DNA from: a virus
Strand: one strand, 5' to 3'
DNA: 21,812 nt
Virus record (IMG/VR): IMGVR_UViG_3300023178_000302
Location: 1 to 21,812 of that record
Notes under the pieces: model-generated
Seen by the model: only the letters and a program-made list of their open reading frames with translations
What the model was told of the DNA's origin: nothing
Database searches by the model: none
Program-made: the position numbers and the translations under genes
In this document: positions 15,044 to 21,741 of the stretch, piece after piece
Layout: every line of letters starts with the position of its first letter
How positions within the stretch are numbered: position 1 is the stretch's first letter

Positions 15044-15271
15044 ATGTCGAATAGAAGAGACAAACTTACTAAGAAGTTGCAAGTTCTTTTAACGGAGGAT
15101 GAGGTTAATATGGTTAATCGTATAATATTGAATGAGGCTATTGAATCAGAATCAAGGCCTATCTCAGTAAGCGCCTTTATAAGAGACTTAATACAACGGG
15201 AAATAAAACAAAGGACACCCCAACAAATGTCCATAACAAGAGAAAATATTAAAAACCTTAAATCAAAATAA
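15044..15271 (+). CDS. Small ribbon-helix-helix-like DNA-binding protein
   Basis: 75 residues. After a basic N-terminus (MSNRRDKLTKKL), residues 13-54 fit the ribbon-helix-helix pattern: a beta strand (LQVLLTEDE), a first helix (VNMVNRIILNEAI), a turn (ESESRPIS) and a second helix (VSAFIRDLIQREI), with a basic tail. CopG/Arc-like proteins bind DNA as dimers and often repress genes. The gene sits in the structural region between the tail tube and the tail-assembly gene, only 3 bases before the latter, and shares its late motif. A regulator in a late transcript might shut down another class or have a packaging role; that is speculation. The fold assignment rests on pattern only. Confidence 0.75.
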   Translation: MSNRRDKLTKKLQVLLTEDEVNMVNRIILNEAIESESRPISVSAFIRDLIQREIKQRTPQQMSITRENIKNLKSK

Positions 15272-15274
15272 GCT

Positions 15275-16273
15275 ATGAACGATAACAAAGATCAAGATCA
15301 AGAAATTGAAAAAATACTTGAATCTAAAGAAGCTTCCCCTGAATTTCAAGAAGCTACAATAGTTGAAGAATCAACTGTGGAGGATCCAGTATTAGAGTCT
15401 ATTACTAATGCAGGATTAGGATCTGTAAATATGGATAGATTCGGCAGAGAAAGGGCTGCTCCCTCAGATTTACACCTGGGCTGGATGGAACTAGATATAG
15501 ATTCATTACCATCACGGGGTATGTTTTACCCAACAGACACTGTCATAAAAATAAGAGCAGCTAAAGCCGCAGAAATTAGACACTTCTCCACTTTGGATGA
15601 AACTAATTTTATAGACATGGAAGAAAAGTTAAATTCTATCATAGAGTCATGTACTATGGTAAATACGCCTTCTAAGAGAATGTCATATAAGGACATTTGT
15701 GAAGAAGATAGAATTGTGCTTCTTTTAAAGATAAGAGATTTGACTTTCCCTGAACCAGAAAACAAAATAGTTTTTAATGCTAAATCAGAAAACGGTTCAA
15801 AATTAGAAATAGATCTATCTACTGATTATTTAGTTCCAAGTGAAATACCGAGCGAAATAAGAAGATATTATGACGAAGATGATAGAACATTTGTTATTCA
15901 AACAAAATCAGCAGGTACTGTTTACATGAAACCGCCTAGCATTGGAGTTATGCAAGAGGTTACTAAATATCTAAAAGATAGAAAAGAAAACGATCAAGAA
16001 ATTGATCAGGCATTTATTCAAGTTCTTCCATATATAGTTAGTGATTGGAGAGGACTAAACGCTAAAAAGATATTTGAACTAGAAATAGAACATAAGCGTT
16101 GGAGTGAAAAGAAGTTTATGGTTATTTATAGACTTGCTGAAAAAATGAAAATAGGTGTAAGCACCACACTTGAAAAAGAAATAGATGGAGAGGTTTTCAA
16201 GGCCCCTCTTGAATTCCCAGGTGGCATCAAAAGTCTTTTCATTATTTCAGATCTCTCTGGAGAACTACTTTAA
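15275..16273 (+). CDS. Baseplate/tail-assembly protein, T4 gp26-like family (tail chaperone candidate)
   Basis: 332 residues in the zero frame. The N-terminal ~60 residues are acidic and disordered. The core begins at LPSRGMFYPTDTVIKIRAAKA (near 88-107), a motif typical of the T4 baseplate-protein family (gp26-like, Pfam T4_baseplate as I recall it), followed by a helical EEKLNSIIESC region, an EIRRYYDEDDRTF segment and a VLPYIVSDWRGLN helix. The C-terminus is PLEFPGGIKSLFIISDLSGELL. The stop TAA at 16271-16273 lies inside an overlapping second frame and directly follows CTT, forming a site like the prfB +1 frameshift. It sits two genes after gp19 and just before the tape measure gene, exactly where tail-assembly chaperones are encoded. 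It probably acts with the tape measure in baseplate and tail initiation. Confidence 0.85.
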   Translation: MNDNKDQDQEIEKILESKEASPEFQEATIVEESTVEDPVLESITNAGLGSVNMDRFGRERAAPSDLHLGWMELDIDSLPSRGMFYPTDTVIKIRAAKAAEIRHFSTLDETNFIDMEEKLNSIIESCTMVNTPSKRMSYKDICEEDRIVLLLKIRDLTFPEPENKIVFNAKSENGSKLEIDLSTDYLVPSEIPSEIRRYYDEDDRTFVIQTKSAGTVYMKPPSIGVMQEVTKYLKDRKENDQEIDQAFIQVLPYIVSDWRGLNAKKIFELEIEHKRWSEKKFMVIYRLAEKMKIGVSTTLEKEIDGEVFKAPLEFPGGIKSLFIISDLSGELL

Positions 16274-16514
16274 GACTAAGTTCTACCTGGCATTACACCT
16301 CAGACTTCAGCCTTCTGAGATAGAAAATTTAGAGTATTATGAGTATTACTACTATGTAAAGAATCTAAGTGAACATCTTAAAGAGCAGAATAATAAAAAT
16401 AAGGAACAACAAGAACAGGCTGACACACAATATAATAAATATAGTCAGCCTAAGATGCCTAAGTTCCAAGCTCCAAAAATGAGTACACCAAGCATAAAGC
16501 TACCCAAATTATAA
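16185..16514 (+). CDS. Overlapping frame; C-terminal extension of the tail-assembly protein, probably read by +1 frameshift
   Basis: This frame opens right after a TAG at 16182-16184 and ends with TAA at 16512-16514. Only the part after 16272 (80 codons) looks protein-like: KTKFYLALHLRLQPSEIENL, an aromatic EYYEYYYYVKNLSEHLKEQ helix, a Gln/Asn/Lys-rich stretch and a Pro/Lys repeat tail (KMPKF, KMSTP, KLPKL). A 'P.EI..L.Y.E...Y...L.E' helical motif is typical of the T-type extensions of phage tail chaperones. There is no convincing start codon near 16272, so either a +1 shift from the 332-residue protein gives a 412-residue product, or it initiates at ATG 16185 or a GTG at 16221. The region 16185-16270 in this frame overlaps the better-conserved upstream gene and is probably not translated. 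The stop lies in the loop of the following terminator. Confidence 0.65.
   Translation: MERFSRPLLNSQVASKVFSLFQISLENYFKTKFYLALHLRLQPSEIENLEYYEYYYYVKNLSEHLKEQNNKNKEQQEQADTQYNKYSQPKMPKFQAPKMSTPSIKLPKL
16259..16274 (+). promoter_or_regulatory. Candidate programmed +1 frameshift site (prfB-like)
   Basis: GGAGA (16259-16263), a 4-base spacer, then CTT TAA G with CTT in the zero frame at 16268-16270 and the stop TAA at 16271-16273. The prfB site of bacteria is a Shine-Dalgarno-like AGGGGG, 3 bases, then CUU UGA: tRNA-Leu slips from CUU to UUU while the stop is decoded slowly. Slipping here moves to AAG at 16272, the frame of the downstream extension. Confidence 0.6.
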
Positions 16515-16533
16515 GGGTAGCTTTATGTTTTTT
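16493..16533 (+). terminator. Strong Rho-independent terminator before the tape measure gene
   Basis: A perfect 13-bp stem, CATAAAGCTACCC (16493-16505) with its complement at 16515-16527, a 9-base loop (16506-16514) and a TTTTTT run (16528-16533). The left arm lies in the coding end of the extension frame and the loop contains its stop codon. It should separate the tail-assembly transcript from the tape measure transcript. Confidence 0.92.
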
Positions 16534-16587: not shown

Positions 16588-19500
16588 TTGAGCGTATTTA
16601 AATCAGCATTTGAAAAGCTAAGTACAGATAATCTTATAAAAATAGAGGATAATACCCGTCGTTCTGCAGAGGCAGTAACTTCTGGGGGTAGTCTATTTAA
16701 AAAGATAGAGAGTATAGCTACGTCTATTGAGAAAATAGAAAAAGGGGCTGGAAAAATGGATGTAAAAACTGCATTGGCAGTTAGAATTGTCTCGCCTGCT
16801 ATAGAAACAATTGGTTTAGGATTAGGATTTGTTGTAGAGGCCTTAAATAGCATGGAAGATTCTCCAGAAGATGCTGAGGCTAAATTTAAAGTGCTTATAA
16901 ATGGCTTAGTTGATTTAGGTGATGTAGGAAAGGCTCTATTTAATTTAGCTAAATATTTAGTGCTTTCTATTCCGTTGTTAATACTTACAACGGCTGCAGC
17001 GCCTATAATAATAGGAGGCCTTTGGGTTTTATTTAGTGGATTACAGAAAATATCTCAAGCTATAGATAATGAATCAATAGAAAAATTAGGAGAATTAGAT
17101 GGTATAGGGTCAACGCTTTTATCGCTTGTCGGTAATATGGCTTTAATTAGCATTTTAATTATTCCGGTTTTAGCTACTGTTCCTATTATTGTAGGTACAT
17201 TATGGCTTTTACTTAAAGGGTTACAAAAGGTTGCTAGCCTCATAGATGAAGAAACTATTGAAAAGCTTTCTAAATTAGATGACGTAGGTAAAAGTATTTT
17301 AATTTTTGCAGGTAGTTTAGCTCTAATTAATTTTATAGCTATTCCAGCCATGTTGGGTTTATTAGCGGCCGGAGTTTTAATACTTGGAGTAGGAGCTATT
17401 CTTAAATTAATGGAAAAGTTTGATTTAGGTATAGATAAATTGACAGAATTTGGAGAATCATTAAAGATTTTTGCATTGGGTTTATTATACTTAGGCGGTA
17501 CATTAGCTTTAGTTGGTTTAGCAGCTCCTTTAATATTTACAGGTTTAATGGTGTCTGTAGTTGTAATAGGAGGTATAGGCCTTGTAATGAAAATATTAGA
17601 AAGCACGGGTCTTATTGAATCTATAGATAGTGCAGCGGAGGCACTAGAAAAAACGGCTAAGGCTTTATTTATGCTAGGTGGTACGCTAGTATTAATAGGC
17701 ATGTTTGCTAAACCAGCTTTTTATGGCTTAGCTGTTTCAATGGGAATTATAATTGCTATAGGAGGCGCATTTTATCTTCTCGATAAGATGAATGTAGAAA
17801 GATCTATGACAAAAATTTCTATTGCACTATTAGACGTAAGTATAGCCATTTTAGCATTAGGTTTGACAATTGCTTTATTGGGAACCATGTCGGGTTATAT
17901 ATTACCGGGTATTGGTGTTGTATCATTAATGGTTCTTTTAGTAGGCGGAGTATTTTATGCATTAGACAAGATGAATGTTGAAAGGTCTATGATAAAGATA
18001 TCGGGGGCCTTAGCTATCGCAGGCTTAGGCATTTTAGCAATTTCATTTGCGTTTTATTTAGCAGATAGAATTTTACCCAATTATGAAAACGTATTAATAT
18101 TATTAGGTCTAATTTCAGCTGTAGGTTTAGTATTTTATATTGCAGGTCTAGCCTTCACGCAAATACTTAAAGGTGCATTTGTAATGGGTGTTGCTGGTTT
18201 AGCTTTAATATTATTAGGCTATGGATTAAAAGCAATAACTAGCTCCGTACCTGATTTAATGACAGGGCTTGGAGTAATAGCTTTGATTATAGGAGTCGGA
18301 GCAGCGTTTGCTTTAGCGGGGCTTGTTGCTGTTAATATTATACTTGGTTCAGCTGCTATGGCCTTAGCTGGAATTTCTATGTTAGTTCTTAGTGTAGGCG
18401 TAACCGGTATGGTATCGGCCATGAGTGGAGAAATCACTTTAGAAAAAATAGGCCTTATGGCTGCTTTAATCGTAGGCGTCGGGGCTGCATATGCTCTAGC
18501 TGGATTTGCCGCTGCTAATATTATACTTGGTTCAGCTGCTATGACAGCAGCAGGAATTTCGCTTCTTGTCCTTGGTGGCGGAATTGCAATTATAACAATG
18601 GCAACTAAAGGATTAACATTAGAACAAGCAGGTATTATAGGAGCTATAATTTTAGGGGTAGGAGCATCCTTTGCCGCTGCCGGAATAGCTTCTCCTCTTA
18701 TATTACTTGGATCTGCAGCTATGCTTGTTGCTGCAGTTGCTCTTGTAACTTTAACCGGTGCAATAGCAGTTCTTAATACAATAGGATTTGCAGAATTAAC
18801 ATCTAAAAACGGAATCTTTGGAGACTCGGGTCAAGTAACATCAGGATTTTTAGGAATCGGTGCCGGCAGACCTAAGACTAATTTAGAAGTGATGATGGAA
18901 GCAGTTGCTAATTCATTTATGTTAAATCCTATTTCTATAGCAGCTATGTATGCGGGTGCTCCGGCTTTAATTATGGCGGCGGTTGCTTTAACTTCAATTG
19001 CGTTTGGTGTTAAACAATTTCAAAAAATAGCTAGAGAGGCAGATCTATCCACGTTGGGCGCAAATGTAAACGAAATAGTTAATTCTTTATCAACAACATT
19101 TGCAAATATAGGCCAAACATACCCAGGAGGAAGGAAAAGTCTATTTAATAGAGTATTTGGCGGTGGAGGCCAATCGGTAGTTGCTGATGGTATATCGTCG
19201 GTAATGGGAATGGGCTCTGCTTTAACGGGCATAGCAAGAGGTGTTCAAGCTATGGCTAATTTAAAGTTTCCTACTAAATGGGATAAAGAAGGAAATCCTA
19301 TAGCATTTGAAAAATTAGATAAAGATGCAGCTAAAAGAGTATTAGAGAATACTCAAATGTTAGTTCGAGGTTTAGCAGAGCCCTTTGCATTAATAGGAAG
19401 GGGACTTGAAATAACACTAGACGATGGTTCTAAAGTTACTGTTGGTGGCGGAGGTAGAAAAGGTTTATTTCAAAGAATATTTACTGGCGGAGGAGGTTCT

Positions 19501-21741
19501 CCTGTGGCTGATGGTATATCAGCTGTTATGGGAATGGGTGAAGCTTTAACTGGTATTGCTCAAGGAACTCAAGCAATGGCTGATTTAAAGTTCCCTACTG
19601 GATTCGGAGCAGATGGTAAGCCAACTGGATATCAAACCATAGATTTAACTACAGCTATACCTAAATTAATAGAAAACACCAAATCAATTGTGGTAGGTAT
19701 GTCGTCTGTATTCGGAGACATTGGTGCTGATGCAGATAAACAAAGATCTTGGTTTTTTGGTAAAAGTAATACAGAAAAAGGTATAAAGATAGTTCAAGGA
19801 TTTGCAGAACCCGTAAAGAGTTTAGCAGAGACAGTAAAGATATTTTCAGAAATGGAAGTAGAAGTATTTTCAAAAGTTCCTGAAAATTTTAGAAAGATAG
19901 TTACTGGTCTTACTAATGTATTTGGAGACATAGGTAAAGATCCAGATGCAGAAAGATCTTGGTGGTTTGGAAAATCCAATATAGAAAAAGGTGTAAAAAT
20001 TGTAAAAAAGATAGCAGATCCAGCTAAAGATATTGCTGATGTAGTAAAGGCCTTAACGGGAGAAGGAGTTGGTGATTTTAAGGCAAACATAAAAAACATT
20101 ATAGCTGGACTTAATGAATTTGCAGCAATTAATCTTGAAACTTTAACTGCATTTAATTTAGCTAGTTCTGCTTTAGGGTCAAGTAGTACTTCAACTATGA
20201 TATCTAATTTAGATAAATTAGGAAACACGGCGCCGACCCTTAAAGGTCTAGGAAAAGTAATAGATGAAATATCAGCCTCATTATTAAAAATGAGCAAAAT
20301 CCCTCCTGGAAATCTAAAACATTATTCTGAACCTATTGCCTTTTTAGCTAAAACTGCGCCTATTGTTGCTCGCCCAATAACTCAAATAGCAGATGCTTTA
20401 GTTAGAATAGGAAATATACCAAATCAAGCGTTAATTCTTTCTAGGGCGTTTATTCTTTCTATTGCTGAAAATAGCTTTGATAAGCAAGCTACAGACTTAA
20501 CTGTAATTGCTAATGCTTTTGAAAAAATGGCTAAAAGTACACCTATTATTGCTGGGCCAATAACCATAATAGCTAACGCTATTGTCAGAATAGGAAATAC
20601 GCCGATTGATGCTTTAACGGCTTCTAAAGACTTTATGATGGCGCTTATTTCAAGCTCACTTTCTTTACAAGCAGAATCTATGACAATTATAGCAGCTGCT
20701 TTTGAAAGTATGGCTAGAAGCACACCTATTATTGCTGGGCCAATAGCCGTAATAGCTAACGCTATTGTCAGAATAGGAAATACGCCGATTGATGCTTTAA
20801 TGGCTTCTAAAGACTTTATGATGACGCTTATTTCAAGCCCGCTTTCTTTACAAGCAGAATCTATGACAATTATAGCAACTGCTTTTGAAAAAATGGCTAG
20901 AAGTACACCTATTATTGCTGAGCCAATAACCGTAATAGCTAACGCTATTGTCAGAATAGGAAATACGCCGATTAATGCTTTAATGGCGTCTAAAGACTTT
21001 ATGATGTCGCTTATTTCAAGCCCACTTTCTTTACAAGCCGAATCTATGACAATTATAGCGGCTGCTTTTGAAAGTATGGCAACTGGCTTTTTTACAGCGG
21101 ATAAGTATAAAGGCGTTATGGCCTTATTGAATACTTTAGATAAGACTGCAAATGGAGTAAATTTAGCGTCAGTCGGTTTAAAAAGTATTGCATCTTCAGC
21201 TTTAAAAATATCTAATGTAAATATAGAAGGAGTAAACACATTTAGAGAAATGGCTTGGCATTTAAATAGAAGTGCCTTTGGAAGACAAGCTCAATCTATA
21301 GAGAAGATAGCAAATTCATATAAAGTTATATCTGATGCCAGTAAAGATATGGATAAAGAGTCCATAAGAGTAACTACTGAAATGTTTGAAGCGCTAGCAT
21401 ATCTTTCTAGCAAAGGCAAAGATAACGCTATAGAACAGCTTGGAGAAGAATTAGTTAATGCTATAACTAGACTAGCTCAAATGATAGCAGACTTTGAAGG
21501 TACAGTTAATGCTCAAAATGAAGGAAGTAAAACAGTACAAGAATCAGTAGCACGTGCAGTTGACGGACTTACCGATGCAGTTGGTTTAGCACCTAAATCT
21601 AAATCAAGTTCAACTAATTCAGGTTCAAGTTCTTCATCATCTTCGAGCGATGTTATACAAGACCTAATAGACTTATTCCAAAATGGATCTGCTAGAGTTG
21701 TTATAACTGATCTTGAGCAAGCTGCAGCCGCTAAAATTTGA
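16588..21741 (+). CDS. Tape measure protein (very large, repeat-rich)
   Basis: 1717 residues starting at TTG 16588. An in-frame stop at 16582 rules out an upstream start, and the next ATG (16756) would remove 56 well-formed residues. It begins with an amphipathic helical segment, then residues about 60-830 form a long series of hydrophobic helices with repeated blocks (e.g. NIILGSAAM twice, DKMNVERSM twice). Gly-rich repeats follow near 845-1000, paired FGDIG...W(F/W)FGKSN repeats at 1041 and 1111, then a tandem 61-residue array (about 1257-1500). A Ser-rich linker (near 1670-1690) precedes the last helix. Length, hydrophobic repeats, helical content and position after the tail chaperone identify it. 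T4 gp29 has 590 residues; by the rough 0.15 nm per residue rule this would suggest a tail of up to about 250 nm. It also exits into the host membrane during infection in related phages. Confidence 0.9.
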   Translation: MSVFKSAFEKLSTDNLIKIEDNTRRSAEAVTSGGSLFKKIESIATSIEKIEKGAGKMDVKTALAVRIVSPAIETIGLGLGFVVEALNSMEDSPEDAEAKFKVLINGLVDLGDVGKALFNLAKYLVLSIPLLILTTAAAPIIIGGLWVLFSGLQKISQAIDNESIEKLGELDGIGSTLLSLVGNMALISILIIPVLATVPIIVGTLWLLLKGLQKVASLIDEETIEKLSKLDDVGKSILIFAGSLALINFIAIPAMLGLLAAGVLILGVGAILKLMEKFDLGIDKLTEFGESLKIFALGLLYLGGTLALVGLAAPLIFTGLMVSVVVIGGIGLVMKILESTGLIESIDSAAEALEKTAKALFMLGGTLVLIGMFAKPAFYGLAVSMGIIIAIGGAFYLLDKMNVERSMTKISIALLDVSIAILALGLTIALLGTMSGYILPGIGVVSLMVLLVGGVFYALDKMNVERSMIKISGALAIAGLGILAISFAFYLADRILPNYENVLILLGLISAVGLVFYIAGLAFTQILKGAFVMGVAGLALILLGYGLKAITSSVPDLMTGLGVIALIIGVGAAFALAGLVAVNIILGSAAMALAGISMLVLSVGVTGMVSAMSGEITLEKIGLMAALIVGVGAAYALAGFAAANIILGSAAMTAAGISLLVLGGGIAIITMATKGLTLEQAGIIGAIILGVGASFAAAGIASPLILLGSAAMLVAAVALVTLTGAIAVLNTIGFAELTSKNGIFGDSGQVTSGFLGIGAGRPKTNLEVMMEAVANSFMLNPISIAAMYAGAPALIMAAVALTSIAFGVKQFQKIAREADLSTLGANVNEIVNSLSTTFANIGQTYPGGRKSLFNRVFGGGGQSVVADGISSVMGMGSALTGIARGVQAMANLKFPTKWDKEGNPIAFEKLDKDAAKRVLENTQMLVRGLAEPFALIGRGLEITLDDGSKVTVGGGGRKGLFQRIFTGGGGSPVADGISAVMGMGEALTGIAQGTQAMADLKFPTGFGADGKPTGYQTIDLTTAIPKLIENTKSIVVGMSSVFGDIGADADKQRSWFFGKSNTEKGIKIVQGFAEPVKSLAETVKIFSEMEVEVFSKVPENFRKIVTGLTNVFGDIGKDPDAERSWWFGKSNIEKGVKIVKKIADPAKDIADVVKALTGEGVGDFKANIKNIIAGLNEFAAINLETLTAFNLASSALGSSSTSTMISNLDKLGNTAPTLKGLGKVIDEISASLLKMSKIPPGNLKHYSEPIAFLAKTAPIVARPITQIADALVRIGNIPNQALILSRAFILSIAENSFDKQATDLTVIANAFEKMAKSTPIIAGPITIIANAIVRIGNTPIDALTASKDFMMALISSSLSLQAESMTIIAAAFESMARSTPIIAGPIAVIANAIVRIGNTPIDALMASKDFMMTLISSPLSLQAESMTIIATAFEKMARSTPIIAEPITVIANAIVRIGNTPINALMASKDFMMSLISSPLSLQAESMTIIAAAFESMATGFFTADKYKGVMALLNTLDKTANGVNLASVGLKSIASSALKISNVNIEGVNTFREMAWHLNRSAFGRQAQSIEKIANSYKVISDASKDMDKESIRVTTEMFEALAYLSSKGKDNAIEQLGEELVNAITRLAQMIADFEGTVNAQNEGSKTVQESVARAVDGLTDAVGLAPKSKSSSTNSGSSSSSSSSDVIQDLIDLFQNGSARVVITDLEQAAAAKI
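19126..19599 (+). repeat. Internal duplication in the tape measure gene (108-codon spacing)
   Basis: Residues from about 847 (GGRKSLFNRVFGGGGQS) recur 108 codons later from about 955 (GGRKGLFQRIFTGGGGS). Both copies continue VADGIS.VMGMG.ALTGIA and end LKFPT. Copies span about 19126-19275 and 19450-19599. The copies have diverged at DNA level, so this duplication is older than the array downstream. Confidence 0.8.
19672..20010 (+). repeat. Internal duplication in the tape measure gene (70-codon spacing)
   Basis: VFGDIGADADKQRSWFFGKS (from residue 1041) recurs as VFGDIGKDPDAERSWWFGKS (from residue 1111), both followed by EKG.KIV and a helical AEPVKSLAE or ADPAKDIAD segment. The spacing is 210 bases. 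Confidence 0.8.
20356..21080 (+). repeat. Tandem array of 183-base (61-codon) repeats in the tape measure gene
   Basis: Units begin at 20356, 20539, 20722 and 20905, exactly 183 bases apart. The last three are almost identical in DNA and protein (TPIIAGPIT.IANAIVRIGN ... DFMM.LISS.LSLQAESMTII); units 2 and 3 differ at 7 of 61 residues. The first unit is diverged (APIVARPITQIADALVRIGN). Weaker relatives are visible before (near 20230) and after (near 21125), so the array looks freshly expanded inside an older one. Confidence 0.93.

Follow-up and report, generated by a model that had tools for sequence, protein, structure and literature searches.

The locus examined here raises the question of how a +1 open reading frame that overlaps the end of a gp26-like tail-assembly gene is expressed, as a gene of its own or as an extension reached by frameshifting, and, in the latter case, where the frame is changed. 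The window, i.e., the whole stretch of DNA analyzed, is a 21.8-kb IMG/VR virus fragment from a T4-like phage of the Bacteroidetes type. Its gp26-like protein matches records of Prevotella, Tenacibaculum, Chryseobacterium, and Flavobacterium phages, Sphingomonas phage PAU, and uncultured huge phages. The features, with the evidence for each, are as follows.

15275..16273, + strand: short tail-assembly chaperone (TAC-N, gp26-like), 332 aa, 0-frame (ORF; phrog_36717, E = 2e-29; hhalign of the long-form profile)
16185..16187, + strand: ATG of the +1 ORF, not conserved (ORF list; start-codon survey)
16226..16240, + strand: putative frameshift interval ATC_AAA_AGT_CTT_TTC, best candidate T_CTT_TTC at 16234-16240 (substitution pattern; TTC in 81/81)
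16239..16273, + strand: stretch apparently coding in two frames (last 12 codons, 34/6/9-10 changes, versus 276 upstream control blocks)
16239..16514, + strand: +1-frame C-terminal extension (TAC-C, gp51-type), 91 codons plus stop, predicted fused product of 412 aa (phrog_634 match over the junction; +1 third-position-biased changes)
16259..16273, + strand: GGAGA, CTA, CTT, TAA, the site first proposed, probably not the shift site (GGA replaced in 9/81; huge-phage last codon GAA)
16588..21741, + strand: tape-measure-like gene, 1717 aa, TTG start (size and position only)

A probable gp26/gp51-type chaperone pair in two frames

Matches to phrog_150 and PF12322 cover most of both T4 gp26 (208 aa) and T4 gp51 (249 aa), which makes the two proteins paralogues, one short and one long; gp51, unlike gp26, also matches phrog_634 through its C-terminus. 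The +1 ORF of the window (16185-16514) has an E value of 4e-8 against phrog_634 (gp51, "baseplate hub assembly catalyst") and is therefore not a chance ORF. Fusion of the two frames at CTT_TTC gave a single phrog_634 match spanning the junction (36.5 bits, E = 9e-9). Furthermore, a profile of Bacteroidetes-type fused long forms aligned with a T4 gp51-type profile over 262 columns (hhalign probability 97%, E = 4e-11). Since the fused product of the window aligns to the T4-like gp51 group along the length of its proteins, the window encodes a short chaperone and the extension for a long one; judged by homology, the +1 ORF is a gp51-type C-terminal extension of a gp26-like tail-assembly chaperone. 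A Pfam search with the gp26-like protein of the window gave no match, and no PDB relatives were found by sequence.

Related loci were collected by a terminase-based scan (80 close loci) and by gp26-based scans (160 more), and phage records were added; a related-locus search with MA9V-1 as the query found no loci. A +1-frame extension of at least 40 codons was present in 226 of the 227 loci with a readable junction, which came from IMG/VR and phage records and from several clades. A sequence-only reading of this DNA had described the second frame as open from 16185 to 16514, with 80 residues past a CTT_TAA junction, and as extending a tail-assembly chaperone at its C-terminus, beside a tape-measure-like gene; the open frame was found as described (109 codons, 80 of them past the junction), the phrog_634 match and the conservation in 226/227 loci confirm it as genuine, and its assignment as an extension is supported. 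The 1717-codon ORF that comes after the chaperone gene and the extension owes the tape-measure label to size and position only, and the first 471 codons of this gene (16588..21741) gave no family match in profile searches. On the other side of the chaperone gene, a small ORF (15044-15271, 75 aa) has a weak match to phrog_536, a transcriptional regulator family (E = 0.02). A terminator-like hairpin, AAGCTACCC / GGGTAGCTT, followed by a T run (16497-16533), spans the end of the +1 ORF and lies 5' of the tape-measure-like gene; 25 of 78 relatives have a similar hairpin with a T run.

The same reading had seen no convincing start for the extension, and we agree. It missed that an ATG at 16185 opens the ORF directly after an in-frame TAG, yet this ATG is not conserved (position -29, counted from the 0-frame stop; present in 10/81 non-redundant window-type sequences). 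A separate overlapping gene could start at this ATG, which lies in an A-rich context, at a TTG at codon -21, or at a GTG at codon -17; GTG occurs at -17 or -18 in 39 and 20 of the 81 sequences, respectively, and in MaF61, an ATGAGTAA overlap is annotated as a gene. However, the clades have no start in common, the most widely common +1 start position reaching 39/81 sequences at most, and in 8 of the 81 the +1 frame has no ATG, GTG, or TTG from its upstream stop to where conservation begins. The nearest upstream +1 stops sit 20 codons before the 0-frame stop. From the candidate starts down to codon -16, the +1 frame is not conserved, and T4-like relatives that do have a separate gp51 gene encode the full long form with it, not the extension alone. 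An independent start was rejected for want of a conserved start codon, and we regard a separate gene as very improbable. With no conserved start in the homologues surveyed, programmed frameshifting therefore stands.

Probable place of the frame switch

Changes at 0-frame codon positions 1, 2, and 3 were counted by parsimony in the 81 sequences. Codons -60 to -20 showed the usual third-base excess, with about 16 third-base changes per codon. Third-base changes still numbered 5-10 at each of codons -18 to -16 (10 at codon -16) and were gone from codon -13/-12. From codon -12 to the stop, the counts were 34/6/9-10 at positions 1/2/3, i.e., the third bases are frozen and the first bases vary. First-base changes made up a fraction of 0.69 in these last 12 codons, versus at most 0.34 among 276 upstream 12-codon control blocks, and third bases changed at a rate of 0.75 per codon, versus a minimum of 13.7 in the controls. 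The first-base-dominated pattern persists 3' of the 0-frame stop, as +1 coding predicts, and a like pattern (15/3/7) was found in the huge-phage clade (44 sequences). The first base of the 0-frame is the third base of the +1 frame, and it varies from codon -12, so the +1 frame appears to be read before the stop. Judged from this pattern, the frame switch lies within codons -15 to -11 (16226-16240 of the window).

The most constant feature of this interval is T_CTT_TTC (71/81) or T_ATT_TTC (7/81), so that T_(C/A)TT_TTC is present in 78/81. The TTC is found in all 81 and is preceded by CTT in 73, ATT in 7, and TTA in 1; in the huge-phage clade, T_ATT_TTC occurs in 43 of 44 sequences. The position is homologous to the T_TTT_TTC of other T4-like gene 26 ends. 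T_CTT_TTC (T_ATT_TTC in relatives) is the most likely shift site on this comparative evidence, 33 bases upstream of the site first proposed, which is hereby corrected. Codons -15 to -13 are unusually conserved too, which leaves AAA or AGT as possible slip codons. Slippage at AAA_A was rejected as a general site, T following AAA in about half of the relatives. Re-pairing from CUU or AUU to UUU does not fit codon -12 in three loci (L188-L190, TTA_TTC) and in Lak phages (ATA_TTC).

The site first proposed, GGA GAA CTA CTT TAA G, is present at the gene end as described, with GGAGA (16259-16263) four bases 5' of CTT (16268-16270) and the stop at 16271-16273. There, P-site CUU would re-pair to UUU during slow UAA termination, aided by GGAG. 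CTT_TAA is invariant in the window clade (81/81); F. johnsoniae prfB uses AGGAGGUAUCUUUGAC (PMC8710568), which shows a mechanism of this kind to be present in these hosts; and Lak phages end in TTT_TAA_T, a good +1 site. However, a shift at CTT_TAA predicts no +1-frame selection before the stop, precisely where the +1 frame dominates, and a junction there scores lower against profiles. The fusion at CTT_TAA reached 18.6 bits with phrog_634, about half the score obtained at CTT_TTC, and the match started only past the junction. With a profile from T4-like sequences only, scores stayed level for junctions between about -21 and -7 and went down by 7-11 bits towards -1. Profile scores favor a junction upstream of codon -6. 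The GGAG, which had been likened to a Shine-Dalgarno sequence, is broken in 9/81 (GGA to GGC, TCA, GAC, or GAA), and it lies one base farther from CTT than its counterpart in F. johnsoniae prfB if aligned in the AGGAGGU register. Outside the window clade, CTT before the stop is absent, the last codon being GAA, ATT, TCT, TTT, TTA, AAG, AAA, or GAG (GAA TAA in huge-phage relatives), and nearly all loci use UAA as the stop. CTT_TAA is fixed in the window clade because both frames constrain that stretch. CTT_TAA was rejected as the slip site on the substitution pattern and the profile scores, and we give this explanation hardly any credence. What remains of the original proposal is a frameshift into the +1 frame, which is most likely; its prfB-like site does not stand, because the +1 frame is selected from codon -12 and +1 reading begins upstream of CTT_TAA.

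Candidate slip mechanisms at T_CTT_TTC

Taken together, the comparative data make it quite probable that one gene encodes a T4-like chaperone pair, with the long form produced via a forward frameshift at T_CTT_TTC. Most ribosomes would stay in the 0-frame and yield the short gp26-like chaperone of 332 aa. A minority would shift at T_CTT_TTC (16234-16240) and then read the +1 frame through 16511, giving a long chaperone of 412 aa whose last 91 residues would be the gp51-type extension. The occurrence of the shift, its direction and efficiency, and a role in tape-measure and tail assembly are what we infer from this arrangement. Most likely, the P-site tRNA-Leu would slip by +1, from CUU to UUU, a prfB-like re-pairing without an A-site stop codon. 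Alternatively, as in phage Mu, tRNA-Phe could slip by -2 from UUC to UUU, which would lead to the same frame with one extra Phe. Both slips resume at TCA (16239-16241), and the sequence cannot tell them apart; the +1 slip is favored, given that prfB slips on CUU. The -2 slip has a precedent in the tail genes of phage Mu (PMC5009743), would be a cognate re-pairing at every (C/A)TT_TTC, and is nearer to a T_TTT_TTC ancestry, but the mechanism is rare, and we hold it to be the less probable of the two, an unlikely step that nevertheless deserves attention.

The only Shine-Dalgarno-like sequence near the CTT of the candidate slip site is GGTGGC, about 9 nt upstream. A conserved downstream RNA structure was sought as a stimulator and none was found (RNAalifold, -0.66 kcal/mol), and a downstream RNA stimulator was rejected for this reason; single-sequence folds gave z scores of about 0 for the window and about -2 for two relatives (L030 and L189). 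Huge phages (L267-L346) carry a perfect Shine-Dalgarno-like GAGGAGGTC in the gp26-like gene (codons -29 to -26), with frozen third bases, about 36 nt upstream of the putative slip site. In two Lak phages (L003 and L005), the chaperone gene ends in TTT TAA T, and extra sequence is inserted into the +1 extension ahead of its conserved part; these phages may use a true stop-codon +1 site, TTT_TAA_T.

Relation to known chaperone genes and frameshift systems

The abstract of the 2022 study by Vladimirov et al. reportedly describes frameshifting for several groups of T4-like phages and, for T4, genes 26 and 51 as separate. The sequence-only reading took a +1, release-factor-type site in a T4-like phage to be not described; frameshifting of T4-like chaperones as such is covered in prior literature: a passage of PMC10885494 credits Vladimirov et al. 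2022 with identifying the T4-like tail-assembly chaperones, and a passage of PMC12846349, citing the same study, mentions poly-T slippery sites in T4-like TAC-N genes. A 2016 review lists -1, -2, and +1 shifts among tailed phages and names T4 as the exception (PMC5009743). A literature search for such chaperones together with Flavobacterium gave no match. The new part may be that the shift would run forward (+1 or -2) in phages of the Bacteroidetes type and in huge phages.

T_TTT_TTC is present at the gene 26 end in 81 of 82 cyanophage-type loci, and the -1 frame encodes a homologous extension. Gene 26 likewise ends in TTT TTC, with the gp51-type extension in the -1 frame, in the cyanophages P-SSM7 and ACG-2014g, KVP40-like V09, Aeromonas phiWae14 and Asswx, and Stenotrophomonas Moby; Rhizobium RL2RES has TTT TTG instead, again followed by a -1-frame extension. 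Cyanophage and KVP40-like proteins joined at TTT_TTC align to T4 gp51 with no gap at the junction. An extension that follows gene 26 in the -1 frame explains why gp51 of cyanophages and marine vibriophages was described as being without the first 200 residues (PMC3037559). In cyanophage records such as L099 (1974-2069), gp51 is annotated as a 31-residue orphan ORF; such ORFs should be joined to gene 26 via a -1 frameshift. Gene 26 of Salmonella phage GG32 (Ackermannviridae; L104) ends in ATT TTC ATT TAA and lacks T_TTT_TTC; its gp51-like extension lies in the -1 frame.

The window departs from the -1 pattern on T_TTT_TTC, as it has T_CTT_TTC and the +1 frame. An ancestral T_TTT_TTC may have become T_CTT_TTC or T_ATT_TTC by one base and the direction may have changed from -1 to forward (+1 or -2), without a stop codon, a Shine-Dalgarno sequence, or an RNA-structure stimulator; we see this as evenly balanced between right and wrong. 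The homologous slip sites, which differ mainly in one base but give different frames, invite a natural comparison, and they make a direct reporter test of the determinants of frameshift direction possible. The gp26/gp51 pair is furthermore assigned in Bacteroidetes-type and huge phages, a large group that for the most part lacks annotation and in which gp51 is otherwise missed or called a tiny orphan ORF.

Among known systems, T4 gp26/gp51 (PF12322, phrog_150; TAC-N/TAC-NC) are likewise a short and a long form of one protein, but T4 has two separate full-length genes, whereas the window has one gene and an out-of-frame extension. The G/GT genes of the lambda type encode a short protein and a frameshift-extended form ahead of the tape measure, an arrangement that the window would share; their shift is -1, unlike the +1-frame extension of the window. 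Re-pairing of P-site CUU to UUU would be common to the window and bacterial prfB (RF2), but the slip proposed here would differ from prfB in having no A-site stop codon, no close Shine-Dalgarno sequence, and no expected RF2 regulation. Bacteroidia perform +1 frameshifting in prfB despite an occluded anti-Shine-Dalgarno sequence; there, AGGAGGU lies two bases 5' of CUU, and the stop is UGA (PMC8710568), an arrangement unlike that of the window site. The window also resembles the cyanophage and KVP40-like TAC genes, which have a homologous gene and, as in the window, a homologous extension at the end of gene 26; there, the extension lies in the -1 frame on the tandem slippery heptamer T_TTT_TTC, whereas in the window it lies in the +1/-2 frame at T_(C/A)TT_TTC.
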